This document shows, piece by piece, positions 29-36,164 of a DNA stretch of 64,000 nucleotides (its first letter is position 1; each line of letters begins with the position of its first letter). Origin of the DNA: Bacillota bacterium (lineage in GTDB: Bacteria > Bacillota > UBA4882 > UBA8346); NCBI GenBank assembly GCA_029776205.1, contig JAKOTQ010000096.1:257771-321770 (forward strand), read 5' to 3'. Position numbers and translations under genes: made by a program. The notes below the pieces were generated by a model. The model saw only the letters and a list, made by a program, of their open reading frames with translations. It ran no database searches and was not told where the DNA came from.

Positions 29-2422
29 TCAGTTTGAAAAAACTTTATTCTCAGTTAACTGCATTACAATCACTGTCATGTCATCTTTAGGGAGCCCATC
101 TTGATTGATCTTGGCTAAATTCAACAAATATTCGCCGAGCGCTTCCGGGCCGACCACTTCTACTTTACTCAGTGCCCGTTTTATCCATTCATCATTTCCG
201 GAAGGATCCAATTTGCTGTCGACCACACCATCTGTAACCATCACCACCAAATCGCCTGGCATCAAATTGATGGTTGTTTTCTCAATATCCACTGTATTCA
301 AGATTCCGGCAGGCAACGATGTGGATTTGATGGTCCAAACTTCGCGGCCCCGTTTTACATACGTTGCTGCAGCACCGATCTTTAGGAATTCAGCAGCTCC
401 GCTGTAAAGATCGATCCATGCTAAATCAACCGTTGCAAAAGACTCTTCCGGTGAACGCAACGACATCATGGAATTTACCATTTTCACAGCAAAGTTACGA
501 TCAATTCCAGTATCCAATAACTGTTCCAAAATCGTCACTGTCGAGTTGCTCTCCGATGCCGCCTTGCTGCCATGGCCCATACCATCACTTAGTATGGCTA
601 CAAAATATCCATCTTTCAGTTCATGAAGGGCATGACTGTCTCCGGAAAATTCGTTGCCGGCTTTTGGAAGTTTACATACCGTAGTTTTCACTTCATAGGT
701 CCGTTTAGGAATAAGACAATAAGCACATTCGTCTTTCCCCAGAGAGCATTTCTTTTCCCATACAATATATTCAAGTCCCAGCAAAGAACTGATAAATGGC
801 ACCATCACATGTTGACATTCATGTCTTTGATTACATTTACGCCGCTTCACATAGATTTCCAATCCATCTTCTCCAAAAGAACTGACTCCGATTTCTTTGA
901 CATATATACCAGCCCGGTTGAGACCACTTTTGATTTTCGTTTCCAATTCCGATCTAAAAATACTGTCTCGGGATATTTGCTTACCCAACTTTTGAACTAG
1001 CCCTGAGATTCCCTCCATTTGGCCGATGAGGTATTGAGTATGTTCTTCCAGTTTGCGTCTCCAATAATTATCTCCATGACAGCTTTCCAACAATTGATTT
1101 ATCGTATTAACCAATTTGAACTGTTGAAAACAATCTTTACTCAATCGCCCTTTCACGTGAGATGCATAAATCTCTCCTTGCAATTCAGCATGGGCGATCA
1201 AATCAAACAGTTCACGGTAAGTCTGATAAAAATTTTCTCCCCAACACTTTTCGTATCCCGTACAATGCTGACAGATTTGATTACAGACCTGATCCAATAA
1301 CGAATATAAATCGGTCCGGACCGGCGGAATACTTGCCTCACGTTCAGACAATGTCTTGGCTATCTCGGCAAACGCACTCGAGACTGCATTCAGACGAGTG
1401 GTAACCAAATCCTCCAACTGCATCTGCTTTTGCTCGGCTTCCTCTTTCGACGCAATCTCCGGAAAACAACCTGAAATGTGGGACAAATGATGACGCGGTA
1501 TCAAGATAAATCCCGCTAAACCCATGCCAACTGACCAGGCATGTCCGGCAATTTCTGCTTCGCCCCCCAGTTGAATCGTCAGAAGATAGAGACCGAGGAC
1601 ACCTCCGATAATCGTACCCCATCGGCCCAGTCCTCGCAAAAAACCGCCTAACATTCCGGGAATGGCATAAACTGCAATTAACATCAAAAAACTTCCAGCT
1701 GTAAGACTAAGTATCCAACCGATTAGGATCCCCATCATCGCACCTGCTCCTCCTCCACCTAAATAAGCAACTGCTGCCAAAAAGGTCACTGAAAGCATCT
1801 CTGAAATATTTACCGAATAAACGGTCAGATCTTGAGCCCCGCATATTCCCATCATTATCATGGCTAACAAAGAGCCTGACGCTAAAGTTGTACTTGTCAA
1901 GGGATAAGCTATATATTTAAATGCCATTTGATATACCTGACTCAAGAAAGCCACCAATAAACATTCGGCAAGGACAATAGTCAAGCTATTTCTTTCCGGA
2001 AAGATGAACGCGACCATCAGCCGCATTCCCAACCATAGTCCCGGTAAAAACCAGCGCTTTCGTTGTAACCATTCGGCTTTAACCCAGTATCGCACCCATT
2101 TATATATGAGCACTGACCCGGTTAACATCATTGCATGGACGTACTCTCCACAACTGACTATCCCCACCAAAAAACCGGATAACAGCGCCAATTCTTGAAA
2201 AAACGACAACTTCCTGGGATATAACGTGAAAGCGATCCCTGCTGGATAAAGACCATATCTTCCCAAAAAACGGCTCAGCAAAACAGCGATCAGAAAATTC
2301 TGTAAACCCTGGGATATTTCCCTAAAATGATCCGAGCGTCCGAAACTTTGAACAGATCCGCTCAAATTTGCTAGCAATTCCGTGAAAACCGGGTCTCTTA
2401 CCAATAACCATCGTCTTTGCAA
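29..2422 (-). CDS. spoIIE: Stage II sporulation protein E (SpoIIE), serine phosphatase
   Basis: 797 aa, close to the roughly 825 aa of Bacillus SpoIIE. The first 320 residues or so are a run of hydrophobic membrane segments, followed by a central region with a Cys cluster (QICQHC...CWG) and a C-terminal PP2C-type phosphatase domain. Metal-binding motifs are visible: DGMGHG at residues 613-618, VTDG near 730 and DDMT near 780. In the family, SpoIIE sits at the polar septum and dephosphorylates SpoIIAA to release sigma-F in the forespore. The start is read as TTG, preceded by a GGGGTGA ribosome site at 7 nt spacing; a GTG eight codons in is an alternative. It stands alone, with a Spo0A-like box upstream. 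Identity is clear; the exact start is less so. Confidence 0.95.
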   Translation of the reverse strand: MQRRWLLVRDPVFTELLANLSGSVQSFGRSDHFREISQGLQNFLIAVLLSRFLGRYGLYPAGIAFTLYPRKLSFFQELALLSGFLVGIVSCGEYVHAMMLTGSVLIYKWVRYWVKAEWLQRKRWFLPGLWLGMRLMVAFIFPERNSLTIVLAECLLVAFLSQVYQMAFKYIAYPLTSTTLASGSLLAMIMMGICGAQDLTVYSVNISEMLSVTFLAAVAYLGGGGAGAMMGILIGWILSLTAGSFLMLIAVYAIPGMLGGFLRGLGRWGTIIGGVLGLYLLTIQLGGEAEIAGHAWSVGMGLAGFILIPRHHLSHISGCFPEIASKEEAEQKQMQLEDLVTTRLNAVSSAFAEIAKTLSEREASIPPVRTDLYSLLDQVCNQICQHCTGYEKCWGENFYQTYRELFDLIAHAELQGEIYASHVKGRLSKDCFQQFKLVNTINQLLESCHGDNYWRRKLEEHTQYLIGQMEGISGLVQKLGKQISRDSIFRSELETKIKSGLNRAGIYVKEIGVSSFGEDGLEIYVKRRKCNQRHECQHVMVPFISSLLGLEYIVWEKKCSLGKDECAYCLIPKRTYEVKTTVCKLPKAGNEFSGDSHALHELKDGYFVAILSDGMGHGSKAASESNSTVTILEQLLDTGIDRNFAVKMVNSMMSLRSPEESFATVDLAWIDLYSGAAEFLKIGAAATYVKRGREVWTIKSTSLPAGILNTVDIEKTTINLMPGDLVVMVTDGVVDSKLDPSGNDEWIKRALSKVEVVGPEALGEYLLNLAKINQDGLPKDDMTVIVMQLTENKVFSN

Positions 2423-6381: not shown

Positions 6382-6416
6382 AGTTGACAGTTTACAGTTG
6401 ACAGGTGACAGGTGAT
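6382..6416. repeat. Heptanucleotide tandem array A (five units)
   Basis: Five consecutive degenerate 7-mers are seen directly: AGTTGAC, AGTTTAC, AGTTGAC, AGGTGAC and AGGTGAT. The array lies between the beta-barrel and LD-carboxypeptidase genes and is inverted relative to array B. Such arrays recur in other intergenic regions of the window. Confidence 0.85.
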
Positions 6417-6423
6417 AACCAAC

Positions 6424-6455
6424 GCAAAAAAAGGGGTCTGAATCAAAGACCCAAA
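6424..6455 (-). terminator. Rho-independent terminator of the LD-carboxypeptidase gene
   Basis: Minus-strand stem GGGTCT/AGACCC with a 7-nt loop, followed by a run of eight T. It sits between inverted heptamer arrays A and B. Confidence 0.85.
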
Positions 6456-6497
6456 CTGTCTGCTGTAACTGTCCACTGTTCCACCTGTCAACTGTCA
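6455..6497. repeat. Heptanucleotide tandem array B
   Basis: Read on the minus strand this is a chain of TGACAGT/TGACAGG-like units with some 6- and 8-nt variants. It runs into the 3' end of the LD-carboxypeptidase gene and supplies its TGA stop codon. It is complementary to array A across the terminator. Confidence 0.75.
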
Positions 6498-7423
6498 GCC
6501 GAGATAAACGGACTTTCTTTCAAATAGAGTATCCCTTCATCCATATCAACACTTACAGTTAACCCTTGTGGTAAGGTCCATTGGTCTTCTAAATGTCCGA
6601 TGGGAAAACCATAAGCTACTGGACAGCCCAGTCCCTCCAACCGTTCTCTGAATACAGCAACCAAATCGGCTTCCGTTTCACCGGGAATCGGGATGCTTTT
6701 CCCGATCACAATCCCACGAAGTCCATCCATAACCCCACAATAGATCAATTGTGTCAATAGCCGGTCCACCCGGTAAGCCGCCTCTTGAACCTCTTCGATG
6801 AAAAGCACACATCCGCTGAAATCCGGCAAATAACCTGTACCGGCCATGGCAGCTATCGTGGTTAAATTCCCTCCGAGTAATGGACCTTCCGCTTTTCCTC
6901 CCCGGATAACGATCAAACGCTGTTGTTTTCTCCCGGGCCATTTTAACGCTTCATCCCCCTGCATACCGGAGAGCATCTTCAAAGCACTCTGACGAGTAAA
7001 GTCACTGGCAAAAGTCGTCAGGACCGGCCCGTGAAAGGTGACCAGTTTCATCCGAGCCCAAAATGCAAGTTCTAAGGCGGTAATATCACTAAATCCCATC
7101 AATATTTTGGGTTTTTTCTCAAAGAAGCGGTAATTCAAACGAGAGAGCAGCCGAAGGCAGCCATATCCTCCCCTTAAGCACCAAACAGCAGCGATGGAAT
7201 CATCTTGCCACATCGATTCCAAGTCCAATTGCCGCGTTCGATCGTCCCCGGCTAGAAACCCACGGCCGGGTATTGCCGTTTTCCCAAGGATCACTTGATA
7301 CCCGGAGGAAACTAGATATTCCACATGTGCCTGATATTCTCTGCTGTCCTTCACTGGACTGGCCGGAGCGATGATGCCAATCCGAGAACCTGCGATCAAC
7401 GGCCGACTCTTTAATTTGACCAT
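6488..7423 (-). CDS. ldcA: Peptidase S66 family muramoyltetrapeptide (LD-)carboxypeptidase
   Basis: 311 aa from the ATG at 7423, chosen because AGGGGTGG lies just upstream; an in-frame start 15 codons earlier has no such support. S66 family features are present: the nucleophile Ser in GFSDIT (about residue 112), the GGNLTTI segment, an acidic IEEV and a C-terminal His in PIGHLEDQW. These enzymes cleave the L-D bond of murein tetrapeptides in the cytosol during wall recycling, or inactivate microcin-like peptides (MccF branch). There is no signal peptide. The last residues and stop codon lie within a heptamer array, so the native C-terminus may have been replaced. Confidence 0.85.
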   Translation of the reverse strand: MVKLKSRPLIAGSRIGIIAPASPVKDSREYQAHVEYLVSSGYQVILGKTAIPGRGFLAGDDRTRQLDLESMWQDDSIAAVWCLRGGYGCLRLLSRLNYRFFEKKPKILMGFSDITALELAFWARMKLVTFHGPVLTTFASDFTRQSALKMLSGMQGDEALKWPGRKQQRLIVIRGGKAEGPLLGGNLTTIAAMAGTGYLPDFSGCVLFIEEVQEAAYRVDRLLTQLIYCGVMDGLRGIVIGKSIPIPGETEADLVAVFRERLEGLGCPVAYGFPIGHLEDQWTLPQGLTVSVDMDEGILYLKESPFISADS

Positions 7424-20114: not shown

Positions 20115-21901
20115 AAAATTGGCATTGCCTCTTAAAATTAATTCAATTCCGTCCCGGATTGTTTTTCCTCAATACTCTTATCTATATCGTCATGTCCTTG
20201 ACGGAACTGGTTCCGGGACTGGCTATCCGGGAAATCTTGAACGTTTTAAGCAATAAAGCTCCCGCCACAGCCAGTCTCTGGACATTACTGGCTCTCATTG
20301 TCGGTTCAACCATTGGCCGGGCCTCCCTGATGATGGCCGATGTTTATACCAACTCCGTATTTCGTTTCTCCGGTGAATCGCTGTTGCGCAAAAACCTGAT
20401 CACCCAAATCTTCCGCCACCCCGGAGCCAAAGCATTATCCGGAACCACCGGTGAAGCCATCAGCCGCTTAATGGGAGATATTCGGGAGATTTTGATCAAT
20501 ATTGGTTGGGTTAACGAGCTTATTGGTTTATCGGTCTTTGCCGGTGTCGGTATCTGGGTGATGGCGAAAATCGACGCACGGATCACCTTATTCGTCTTTT
20601 TGCCGTTGGCTTTAGTCGTTCTTCTGGCCAACCTGGCCTCCAACAAAGCACTGCAATACCGGAGAGCCAGCCGCCGGGCAGCCGGTATTGTCATCGGTTC
20701 CATTGCGGAAATCTTCAATTCCGTTCAAGCCATTAAAGTGGCCAATGCCAATGAACATATTACAAAACACTTTGAAGGATTAAACGAAAACCGCCGGAAG
20801 GCTGTACTTAAAGACCGACTCTTTACCGAATTGCTAAACTCCATCTTTCAAAATGCGATCAATCTTGGAACCGGCCTTATCCTTCTGCTTGCAGGTGATG
20901 CCATGCGTTCCGGTACTTTTACGGTGGGCGACTTTTCCCTCTTCTTATTCTATCTCGGCCGGGTTACTGATCTCACCGGTCTGCTTGGTATTTTCATCGC
21001 CCGTTATAAGCAAACCCTAGTCTCCATCGAACGGATGCAAGCCTTAATCCCGGGGGCCAAACCCGAGGTGATGGTGGAGTTCGGCCCAATCTATTTCAAA
21101 GGGCCTTTCCCTTCCATCCCCCAACCCGAAAAAGCTGGCCTTAACCGGTTAAACACTTTAGAAGCTCAAGGATTGACTTATCATTTTCCCAGTACCGGCC
21201 GGGGAATATCCGATATCAGCTTCCAACTGAAAAAAGGTTCATTTACCGTCATTACCGGGCGGATTGGTTCAGGAAAAACCACGCTGCTCCGGGTACTGCT
21301 GGGATTACTTCCGAAAGACAACGGAGAGATTTATTGGAACGGCCAGCTTGTCACCGATCCCGGTTCATTCTTCGTCCCGCCCCGTTCAGCCTACACGCCC
21401 CAGGTTCCCCGTTTATTCAGCGAAAGCCTGCGGGATAACATCTTAATGGGTCTTCCCGATTCCCCTGGCAGTATTGACAACGCTATCTGGAGCGCTGTAA
21501 TGGAAAGCGACGTGACCGCGATGAAAAACGGCCTGAATACTTTGGTGGGGCCCCGAGGCGTTCGCCTTTCCGGCGGCCAGGTGCAGCGGGCCGCCGCAGC
21601 CCGGATGTTCATCCGTGAACCGGAACTCCTAGTCTTCGACGATCTCTCCAGCGCCCTGGATGTAGATACCGAACAACTCTTGTGGGAACGTACCTTTTCC
21701 CGGCCCGGCGCCACCTGCCTGGTGGTCTCCCACCGCCGTCCGGCCCTCCGCCGGGCTGACCAGATCATTGTCCTCAAAGACGGCAAGATCGAAGCCATCG
21801 GCCGTTTGGAAGCATTATTGGAGACCTGCGAAGAAATGCGCCTCTTATGGCAACAGGCAGCAGATGAGGAGAAAGATAAAACAGCAGAAAAATTGGCATA
21901 A
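20111..21901 (+). CDS. Heterodimeric ABC exporter, subunit 2 (degenerate ATP site)
   Basis: 596 aa. Transmembrane domain (about 15-310), then a nucleotide-binding domain with Walker [10 protein letters not shown], an intact signature LSGGQ, and Walker [13 protein letters not shown] in which Asp replaces the catalytic Glu. H-loop [11 protein letters not shown] is present. Together with subunit 1 one site is competent (Walker A/B of subunit 1 plus LSGGQ of subunit 2) and the other degenerate. Translationally coupled to subunit 1 by a 4-nt overlap. Last gene before the gene-free hairpin region. Confidence 0.93.
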
Positions 21902-22090
21902 TGGAATATCTAACTTGTAAGCTTCTGACTTATCTTTATACATTCATACATCAGAAAGATAACAATCCTTGAAACAGCTAAATAACCGGGATTAATGATC
22001 GAATATTAGCAGGCTTCAATTAACCCGTCAAAAAACCAGACTTTCTCTCAAAATAAAAAGTCAAATTATCGGCCTGTCGGCCTATCGGAG

Positions 22091-22524
22091 TGAGCTCAAT
22101 GAACGAGCTCTTTTTTCTTGAGGGTTGTCCGGCCAACCCTCAAACTCCCGCTGCCGGGGAGTGAGACTCCCCGGACCCCTGCAATCTCTTCGTCCTTCTT
22201 TCCTGATGAAAATTGAAGTCAATAATAACATTTCATCACATTTAGATTACCATAGTGTTCATTTATTCCAAATTGTATATAGCTTACAGAAAGACCTGAT
22301 ATTTTCCGGCGAGGAAGCCGGAACGCGGAATAGATACATGGATGTATCCTTGACGTCGGCATCAGAGCATCAACAAGCAAAGCCGCCAGGGATGGCAATT
22401 CCAGCGGAGTGGGACCCGCGGCCTGGATGGCCGTGGGATAATGGGGGTTTGGGGGATACTCCCCCAGGGGCGTCCGGCCACGCCCCTGATTCGGGAGGTG
22501 CAGGAGGGCGAACATCGCCTCCTG
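22091..22524. other. Dense cluster of GC-rich hairpins: candidate structured RNA or repeat element
   Basis: The 770-nt gap 21902-22672 has no convincing gene. Hairpins seen directly: 22091-22116 (GAGCTC stem plus TTTTTT, possibly the ABC operon terminator); 22118-22143 (10-bp stem TTGAGGGTTG); 22154-22174 (CCGGGGAGT/ACTCCCCGG, 3-nt loop); 22304-22323 (TTCCGGC/GCCGGAA); 22333-22348 (GATACAT/ATGTATC); 22415-22437 (CCCGCGGCC/GGCCGTGGG, one G-U); 22450-22466 (TGGGGGA/TCCCCCA); 22466-22487 (AGGGGCGT/ACGCCCCT); 22501-22524 (CAGGAGG/CCTCCTG with CG extension). GC content is well above the flanks. ORFs of 98-135 codons through it are stem-driven and not believable. No RNA family is recognised. Confidence 0.6.
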
Positions 22525-22625
22525 TTGGCTGACAAAGCAATTTCGTTCATTGAACTAACGGCAATCAAAGACCCAAAACCCACGATCGCAAAAACTAACT
22601 GGCCTATATCATGATTATGATTGAA

Positions 22626-22672: not shown

Positions 22673-23230
22673 TCAATGGCCTTCATTCAATTTATCCGGA
22701 TAAAACAGTTGTCTGGCCTGTTTCGTACCTAAATAACCATACCATACACCAAACGCTAACAACGAACTCCAAATTCGAAAATTCATATTAACCAAAAGTC
22801 GCGTGATTTCTTTGGGCATCAGTTCTTTCATCAACCCTTTTTCAATAGCCGTCAAAATTACAGGTACCGTCACAAAAACCAAGGTCAATACGAATATCAG
22901 ATGAACCAATAAATAAATCCTGGACCATTCCAAACTGCGGGGCCTTAATTTATTCACCCGATACCCCAGAACAATCCCAGCTATGATAAGGAGGACCATC
23001 AGAATTTGATTCACCCGATAAATCAGATCAGCCATTGGATAATCCATTCGAGTCGAAAGCACATACAGATATCCAATCACCGGATTGCTATTTAATAAGG
23101 TTAACAAAGGATTGACAAACATTAACCAAATGACAAATACCAGCATCAAGCCGCCGACGCCGTTACGGTCCGCTTCCTCATAAAACTCTTCACATGACTT
23201 CTGGGGAATTTCAGCCGTGAGCCGACCCAT
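22673..23230 (-). CDS. DUF2569-like four-helix membrane protein
   Basis: 185 aa. After a polar N-terminus (residues 1-22) the chain has GVGGLMLVFVIWLMFVNPLL, similar to the start of DUF2569-type membrane proteins, and four hydrophobic helices in all, with a basic loop after the second (VNKLRPRSLEW). AAGGAGG lies 6 nt before the ATG. Function is unknown. The neighbouring hairpin cluster lies just downstream of its terminator. Family assignment is tentative. Confidence 0.65.
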   Translation of the reverse strand: MGRLTAEIPQKSCEEFYEEADRNGVGGLMLVFVIWLMFVNPLLTLLNSNPVIGYLYVLSTRMDYPMADLIYRVNQILMVLLIIAGIVLGYRVNKLRPRSLEWSRIYLLVHLIFVLTLVFVTVPVILTAIEKGLMKELMPKEITRLLVNMNFRIWSSLLAFGVWYGYLGTKQARQLFYPDKLNEGH

Positions 23231-35197: not shown

Positions 35198-36064
35198 TTA
35201 CATCTTTTCAAGCAGCTTAAAAAAATATGCCATGTTTTGCCTTAATAAATCCCGATTCGCCAATGTCTCTTGTTGGATGAGACGTTCCATATCCTTCAAA
35301 AACGAAGCCATCTCACTGCGATTAGCCTCTTGATACCGGTTTTCAATAGTAACCTGATTCAATCTGGCATTGATGGAATCCTGTTCTTGAAAATACCGCT
35401 CGCGCCATTCAGGATGCTCAGCCGCTCTTATGACAAAATCGACTAACGTCCGGGCCCAATCACCGCCCTGGATGATCTGTTCATGCAATTTCTTATAAGT
35501 CTCCGGCTCCACCAGGCGCATCAACTCACCATGATTAATATAATCTTCCGGAGCTCCTTCCGGTCTTTGGAACGGCGTCAGATAACTGACAGCCCCAGTG
35601 TCAGGATCAACAGTCCTAGTCTGGGCGATAGCCGCTATTTTGTCGATCGTCTCCAAAAACCGGGCTGCCCGATCGCCGCTTAAATAATGCTCAGCAAGAT
35701 ACCTGGCCTGAACCAACCCCATCTCCAGCAAAGCCGCCCGATCCTCGGGGTTTGCGATGGAACCATCCGGCATTAGGTTAGACTGGATGAGATAATTGAT
35801 CGCCTCTTTTACCTCAGGATCGAGCCCTTCCATCACTTCCTGCAATGATTGATAAATCTCAGCCGTCCCGTAGTATGGAAGTGTATGATGCTGAATAGCC
35901 TCATCTGCCAACCGCCTTCCTTCCGGGCTAATCTCTAAAAGGTCGCGGTACTCATGTTCAGTGATTTTTCCGTTGATAAATGGTGTTTCCGTTTTAAATT
36001 GATTCGCCAGAGCATTTTTCCGGTAAAGATTAATTCCAAGGTTATCAATGGATCGAATATTCAT
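35198..36064 (-). CDS. Conserved-looking hypothetical protein, mostly helical
   Basis: 288 aa from the ATG at 36064, which has GGAGGT 6 nt upstream; an ATG two codons earlier abuts the ribosome site. No signal peptide or membrane helix. Largely acidic and helical, with an N-terminal NIRSIDNLGINLYRKN segment and a C-terminal coiled-coil-like stretch (about 240-285). A D-P-D-T-G-A turn occurs mid-protein. No family recognised. Monocistronic, flanked by a ger operon and a decayed pyrophosphatase-like gene. Confidence 0.75.
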   Translation of the reverse strand: MNIRSIDNLGINLYRKNALANQFKTETPFINGKITEHEYRDLLEISPEGRRLADEAIQHHTLPYYGTAEIYQSLQEVMEGLDPEVKEAINYLIQSNLMPDGSIANPEDRAALLEMGLVQARYLAEHYLSGDRAARFLETIDKIAAIAQTRTVDPDTGAVSYLTPFQRPEGAPEDYINHGELMRLVEPETYKKLHEQIIQGGDWARTLVDFVIRAAEHPEWRERYFQEQDSINARLNQVTIENRYQEANRSEMASFLKDMERLIQQETLANRDLLRQNMAYFFKLLEKM

Positions 36065-36164
36065 GAACATACCTCCATGTATGTTATAGGATATATAGAA
36101 TATCGTCAGAATTGCCTGTAAGTTTACAGTAAAATTAATTCGCCTCTGTTTAACATTTAGGAAT

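Follow-up and report, generated by a model that had tools for sequence, protein, structure and literature searches.

RNAs that sequester CsrA are known from Gammaproteobacteria, which do not have FliW. The published CsrA/RsmE site is a hairpin with a hexaloop of the form C-[ANGGAN]-G, the SELEX consensus of CsrA is RUACARGGAUGU, and a 2020 review left it undetermined whether FliW and RNA antagonists cooperate in any species (PMC7652899). Palindromic repeats of the REP/BIME kind form the GTAG and CGTC superfamilies (PMC3733652). The repeat described here, a copy of which lies in a 64,000-nt stretch of a Bacillota genome (the whole stretch is called the window below), shares features with both. 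As in CsrB/CsrC and RsmX/Y/Z, several hairpins with GGA loops lie on one strand together with unpaired GGA motifs, but the repeat occurs as many dispersed mobile copies rather than as one to three dedicated genes, is found in Bacillota with FliW, and gives no match to the Rfam Csr/Rsm models. CsrA is encoded in eight of the ten genomes of the family but was not found in the window's genome or its congener. CsrA antagonism is a property of those RNAs and, for the repeat, a candidate role.

Like REP/BIME sequences, the copies are dispersed intergenic palindromes of mosaic build, often in head-to-head pairs. However, no short-REP format tagged with GTAG or CGTC was recognised among them, their invariant part is the loops and not a tag, and the Y1/RAYT transposase (PF01797) is absent from the window's genome; CGTC REPs are likewise reported without a dedicated transposase.

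The hairpin cluster and its copies in the host genome

The segment at 22091-22524 (434 nt) is flanked by an ABC-transporter gene, whose end is at 21901 (+), and by the gene 22673-23230 (-), which matches DUF2569 below cut-off. The preliminary description, made from the letters of the window, had seen a gene-free cluster of nine stems with neither a believable ORF nor a recognised RNA class. No believable ORF overlaps the cluster in the ORF list, the proposed Rfam search, at gathering and relaxed thresholds, returned nothing relevant, and a tRNA/tmRNA scan found none. Of perfect stems at least 6 bp long, the segment contains seven that do not overlap, against a mean of 0.98 (sd 0.97, maximum 5) in 300 dinucleotide shuffles of it; two further stems read directly from the sequence, at 22451-22465 (GGGGGA-TAC-TCCCCC) and at 22415-22437 (with a G-U pair), bring the count to the nine claimed. 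The perfect stems are borne out, but the "several" loops of 3 nt come down to just two. The fold z-score relative to shuffles is about -5.6 on one strand and -5.8 on the other. With 53% GC the segment is indeed richer than its flanks (35-37%), but not uniformly, since an AT-rich spacer at 22190-22306 (29% GC) separates two GC-rich blocks. The cluster is also larger than first described, homology to the repeat reaching from about 22064 to 22540. Its parts and those next to it are the following, with the strand where one is assigned:

22064-22540: the whole copy, made of an inverted X-end module, an AT-rich spacer, and a complete type A core with the Y end
22064-22193 (-): X-end module, the 3' end of a type B unit in inverted orientation, 74-82% identical to copies C58, C66, C22 and C35 of the same genome
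22092-22116 (+): likely intrinsic terminator GAGCTC-AATGAAC-GAGCTC-TTTTTT, 3' of the ABC operon (terminator scan)
22118-22143: GC-rich hairpin TTGAGGGTTG/CAACCCTCAA, a covarying stem that reads AAAGGGGTTG/CAACCCCTTT in other copies
22154-22174: GC-rich hairpin CCGGGGAGT-GAG-ACTCCCCGG, in other copies CTGGGGACA..TGTCCCCAG
22194-22303: AT-rich spacer between the modules, about 29% GC
22303-22396 (+): stretch matched by the covariance model of B1 units only (25.7 bits, E 6.5e-7 in the 64-kb window)
22304-22323 (+): type A hairpin 1, TTCCGGC-[GAGGAA]-GCCGGAA; copies in the relative G006 are without the GGA
22333-22348 (+): type A hairpin 2, GATAC-[ATGGAT]-GTATC, agreeing with the CsrA SELEX consensus at 11 of 12 positions
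22385-22396 (+): type A hairpin 3, GCC-[AGGGAT]-GGC, GGA invariant in 13 copies, with compensatory changes in the stem
22415-22437 (+): type A hairpin 4, CCCGCGGCC-TGGAT-GGCCGTGGG, with one G-U pair, GGA invariant in 13 copies
22451-22465: GC-rich hairpin GGGGGA-TAC-TCCCCC (direct reading of the sequence)
22465-22488: GC-rich hairpin CAGGGGCGT-CCGGCC-ACGCCCCTG (stem scan)
22501-22540 (+): Y end, with hairpin CAGGAGG..CCTCCTG and terminal CCTGTTGGC, as in copies C4, C57 and C71
22632-22659 (-): terminator belonging to the adjacent gene on the minus strand; it lies beyond the element, and the congener G001 retains it

The left end of the window copy likely supplies the predicted terminator of the ABC operon (22092-22116). 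Its strong form is unique to this copy, other copies having CTCGTTCATTGAGCTC without the longer stem, and the congener has a terminator-like hairpin of its own at the corresponding place after its ABC operon.

A search of the host genome (G000; 2.73 Mb in 124 contigs, 99.4% complete) gave 22 further matches on many contigs, which makes 23 places with the window copy. The copies share separable modules, namely the X end, the inner part of type B, the type A core and the Y end, and elsewhere these stand in other orders (X'-B'-Y, A-Y and B'-A); in C4, of 85 bp, X' is joined directly to Y. The Y end is 91-94% identical over 44-61 nt in copies C4, C57 and C71. All 19 copies examined sit between larger ORFs, which may be convergent, tandem or divergent, and the orientation of the genes relative to the repeats is weakly biased (18 vs 10; convergent 9, divergent 4). 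The hairpin cluster is therefore one copy of a dispersed, gene-free mosaic repeat and not a single-copy RNA gene. Long poly-T palindromes (GGCGCCTTTTTGCGCCGCTTTTTTGGCGGTAAAAAAGCGGC or GTTACTTTTTGnnnCAAAAAGTAAC) close the type B units, as at about 1930-2000 of L066 and in relatives; L066 also carries a c-di-AMP riboswitch of the host genome at 6382-6516 (-) (Rfam RF00379, 101.7 bits).

Mobility and turnover of the repeat

At the orthologous site of the congener G001 the element is absent, and the flanking genes, which are 86% and 79% identical in nucleotide sequence between the two genomes, lie 142 bp apart rather than 720 bp. An 18-nt piece resembling the Y end, seen by eye, is left at this empty site. 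At other orthologous sites of the congeners the element is inverted (C4 vs C284), replaced by other modules (C54 vs C106) or shortened from 923 to 217 bp (C58 vs C36). The shared site at L063:2288-2372 and L045:1067-1193 holds the repeat in opposite orientations, by inversion in place or by re-insertion. A search of G001 with a 12-kb stretch around C71 gave short repeat matches only and no syntenic flanks. No convincing target duplication was found at the window copy; at C4 a possible 7-bp duplication, CAATAAT, read by eye, is suggestive.

In the relative G006 we found five related elements of 919-975 bp with 15-bp terminal inverted repeats (TIRs), CTCAACTTTCGCAGA at both ends with up to 1 mismatch, and with target-site duplications (TSDs) of 6-7 bp (TTATTTC, TTATGAT, TAAAAT, TTAGTA and AAGTCAA). 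Stretches of about 700 bp are 97-98% identical between some G006 copies, and the intact element L137 has no plausible ORF and no transposase inside. Because of these TIRs and target duplications, the repeats are MITE-like transposons, the content of which is two head-to-head hairpin arrays. The G006 elements resemble MITEs in being short, non-coding, bounded by TIRs and TSDs and present as near-identical copies, but they differ from them in their length (about 950 bp vs the usual 70-300 bp), in carrying arrays of conserved hairpins, and in that a search of the examined loci of the window's genome, whose copies are mosaics of greater age, did not find the TIRs. In G006, B1 copies (L130 at about 1070-1170, L136 and L137) carry within hairpin 2 another small palindromic element, with ends ATGCAACGACATTAT; it is a MITE nested in a MITE.

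Conserved structure and GGA loops

B1 units were gathered by iterated nhmmer, which gave 79 copies of at least 110 nt. An alignment of 37 copies supports a structure of 23 pairs, in which 92.5% of cells are paired and compensatory changes occur in 18 of the 23 pairs; no measure was equalled in any of 500 shuffles, and sliding the pairing partners by 1-3 columns left 40-55% paired. Counted on one strand, there are 64 G-T pairs against 21 A-C mismatches (the copies are related, and the counts not independent), and this excess marks the strand of the GGA loops as the folded strand. For the conserved units, then, the earlier hint of RNA-like pairing, drawn from a G-U pair and a bulge, gains ground, and the covarying stems proposed as a check are present.

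Since a covariance model built from B1 units only matches the type A core of the window, types A and B1 are, as judged by this model, related or of one shared architecture. The model finds matches in each of the ten genomes of the family as GTDB defines it (weak in G004) and seven copies in G017 of another family, in which the loops are kept and the stems are different. Among the other 18 genomes of the class, two have one weak match each. A weak match in G020 (L182, about 528-647, minus strand), possibly an RNA unrelated to the repeat, falls between genes in structured sequence that has GGTTCAGGAGGAACC and a long outer stem. No repeat matches came from viral contigs, plasmids or phages. Matches of the first pattern scan in an Accumulibacter contig (L030) and a Bacillota contig (L031) lie in coding-like sequence and were judged to be due to chance, and Accumulibacter matches to the B module, of only 18-23 nt, were judged meaningless. 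No conserved promoter was seen in the repeat units.

In the conserved units the GGA is about 98-99% invariant and the base before it varies freely. Across csrA-bearing genomes, 12 of the 960 cells of the five B1 GGA triplets deviate, against 21% in the other columns; in the csrA-less genus 2 of 144 GGA cells do so, against 10.6% in other columns (P 1.6e-5 if sites are independent). Loops 1 and 3 of B1 read C-A-N-G-G-A-N-G, with loop 2 looser at the A, and among the 79 copies one strand has 129 ANGGAN hexaloop hairpins and the other 0. In type A, the GGA of three hairpins is invariant in 13 copies from four genera; in hairpin 2 of these copies the A and the GGA of the loop are invariant and the N is free, while the stem changes from GATAC to GAGCC. 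Extra GGA and AGGAGG motifs, unpaired, are also found in the conserved units. A restriction-type site GGATG was considered and rejected, as neither loop 1 nor type A keeps the T.

Candidate CsrA sites and alternative explanations

One csrA copy each is found in eight of the ten family genomes, with fliW in the same genomes, and these carry 2-32 scored copies of the repeat each. Neither gene was found in the window's genome (99.4% complete) or in the congener G001 (85% complete), and both appear from the sequences to have been lost in this genus. Their absence from these two genomes and presence in the other eight suggests a loss of motility genes. In G009 the gene order is flgL-like gene, fliW, csrA and flagellin (names other than csrA and fliW were judged by the appearance of the translations). 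In csrA-bearing relatives, six flagellin leaders have an ANGGAN hairpin upstream of a GGAGG Shine-Dalgarno, an internal indication that the CsrA of this lineage may use ANGGAN sites. This succession, an ANGGAN hairpin and then GGAGG, likens the repeat to the B. subtilis-type hag leader, with its CsrA sites at the flagellin Shine-Dalgarno. The repeat, in contrast, is unattached to an ORF, and the ATG after GGAGG is not conserved across copies; the unit as a leader was rejected, as this ATG is not kept across genera. In the window, a perfect hairpin AACATAC-[ATGGAG]-GTATGTT at 36066-36085 (-) stands directly before the ATG of an ORF at 35198-36070 (-) without a Pfam match, with the GGAGG Shine-Dalgarno in its ANGGAN loop. 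By sequence this is a leader of the CsrA type, and the genome that carries it has no detectable csrA.

Our best reading of the repeat is a transposable array of candidate CsrA-type sites, CsrB-like in design. RNA from one strand of the A and B1 units would present C-[ANGGAN]-G hexaloops and further GGA and AGGAGG motifs as candidate sites for the CsrA family; in csrA-bearing relatives a transcribed copy could hold several CsrA dimers and act either as a sponge or as an untranslated region responsive to CsrA (transcription, CsrA binding and sponge function are what we infer here). We give this reading about an even chance, because the GGA is intact without csrA and the orientation bias is weak. 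The window copy is most likely a relic or repurposed, since csrA and fliW appear to be lost in its genus; its intact loops mean either that the loss is recent or that another factor keeps them, for example an enzyme that acts on a folded DNA strand.

Such an enzyme is central to a purely DNA-level explanation. REPs are thought to be recognised by RAYTs as folded single-stranded DNA or as cruciforms, and the GGA hairpins could in the same way serve a transposition enzyme, with no role as RNA. Mobility, shown by the TIRs and TSDs, agrees with this, as do the loops kept in the csrA-less genus and the copies in convergent, tandem and divergent gaps, and folding of one strand fits single-stranded DNA too. 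Nevertheless we find this explanation rather doubtful: the window's genome has no Y1 transposase, the hairpins do not include the TIRs by which the G006 elements are defined, and the A-N-GGA-N loops with their free N, the unpaired GGA and AGGAGG motifs and the match to the flagellin leaders resemble CsrA sites, features of which a TIR transposon has no need. That the hairpins act at 3' ends, in termination or mRNA stability as for many REP/BIME sequences, is improbable. The terminator-like hairpin at 22092-22116 and the excess of convergent over divergent settings (9 to 4) would suit it, but the strong terminator is confined to the window copy, several copies lie between divergent genes, and termination does not explain invariant GGA loops.

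The preliminary description had hesitated between a large ncRNA, a guide-RNA relic of an IS605-like element and a palindromic repeat. The strong fold in a gene-free interval had spoken for the first two, which now have hardly any probability left: they are contradicted by the copy number and by the lack of TnpB (PF07282, in none of the ten family genomes) and of TnpA (Y1, PF01797, absent from the window's genome), besides the congener site without the element and the failure to match Rfam. The palindromic repeat is the option that held, with dispersed copies, an empty congener site and TIR- and TSD-bounded elements in a relative; the proposed search for copies found them in the window's genome and in all ten genomes of the family.

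To our knowledge no CsrA-sponge RNA is known in the Bacillota lineage concerned, and dispersed repeats of CsrA sites are not described in the literature searched, which was partial and is no proof of novelty. We tentatively suggest that the element family may spread arrays of candidate CsrA-binding hairpins, CsrA being titrated by mobile DNA alongside FliW, and such a family could possibly be a mobile, multi-copy counterpart of CsrB in Bacillota. If true, a transposon would be spreading the binding sites of a global RNA regulator. With csrA, fliW and the repeat in the same genomes, the question of FliW and RNA antagonists becomes directly testable, and the csrA-less genus of the window provides a natural control for the fate of the sites once their presumed reader is gone.
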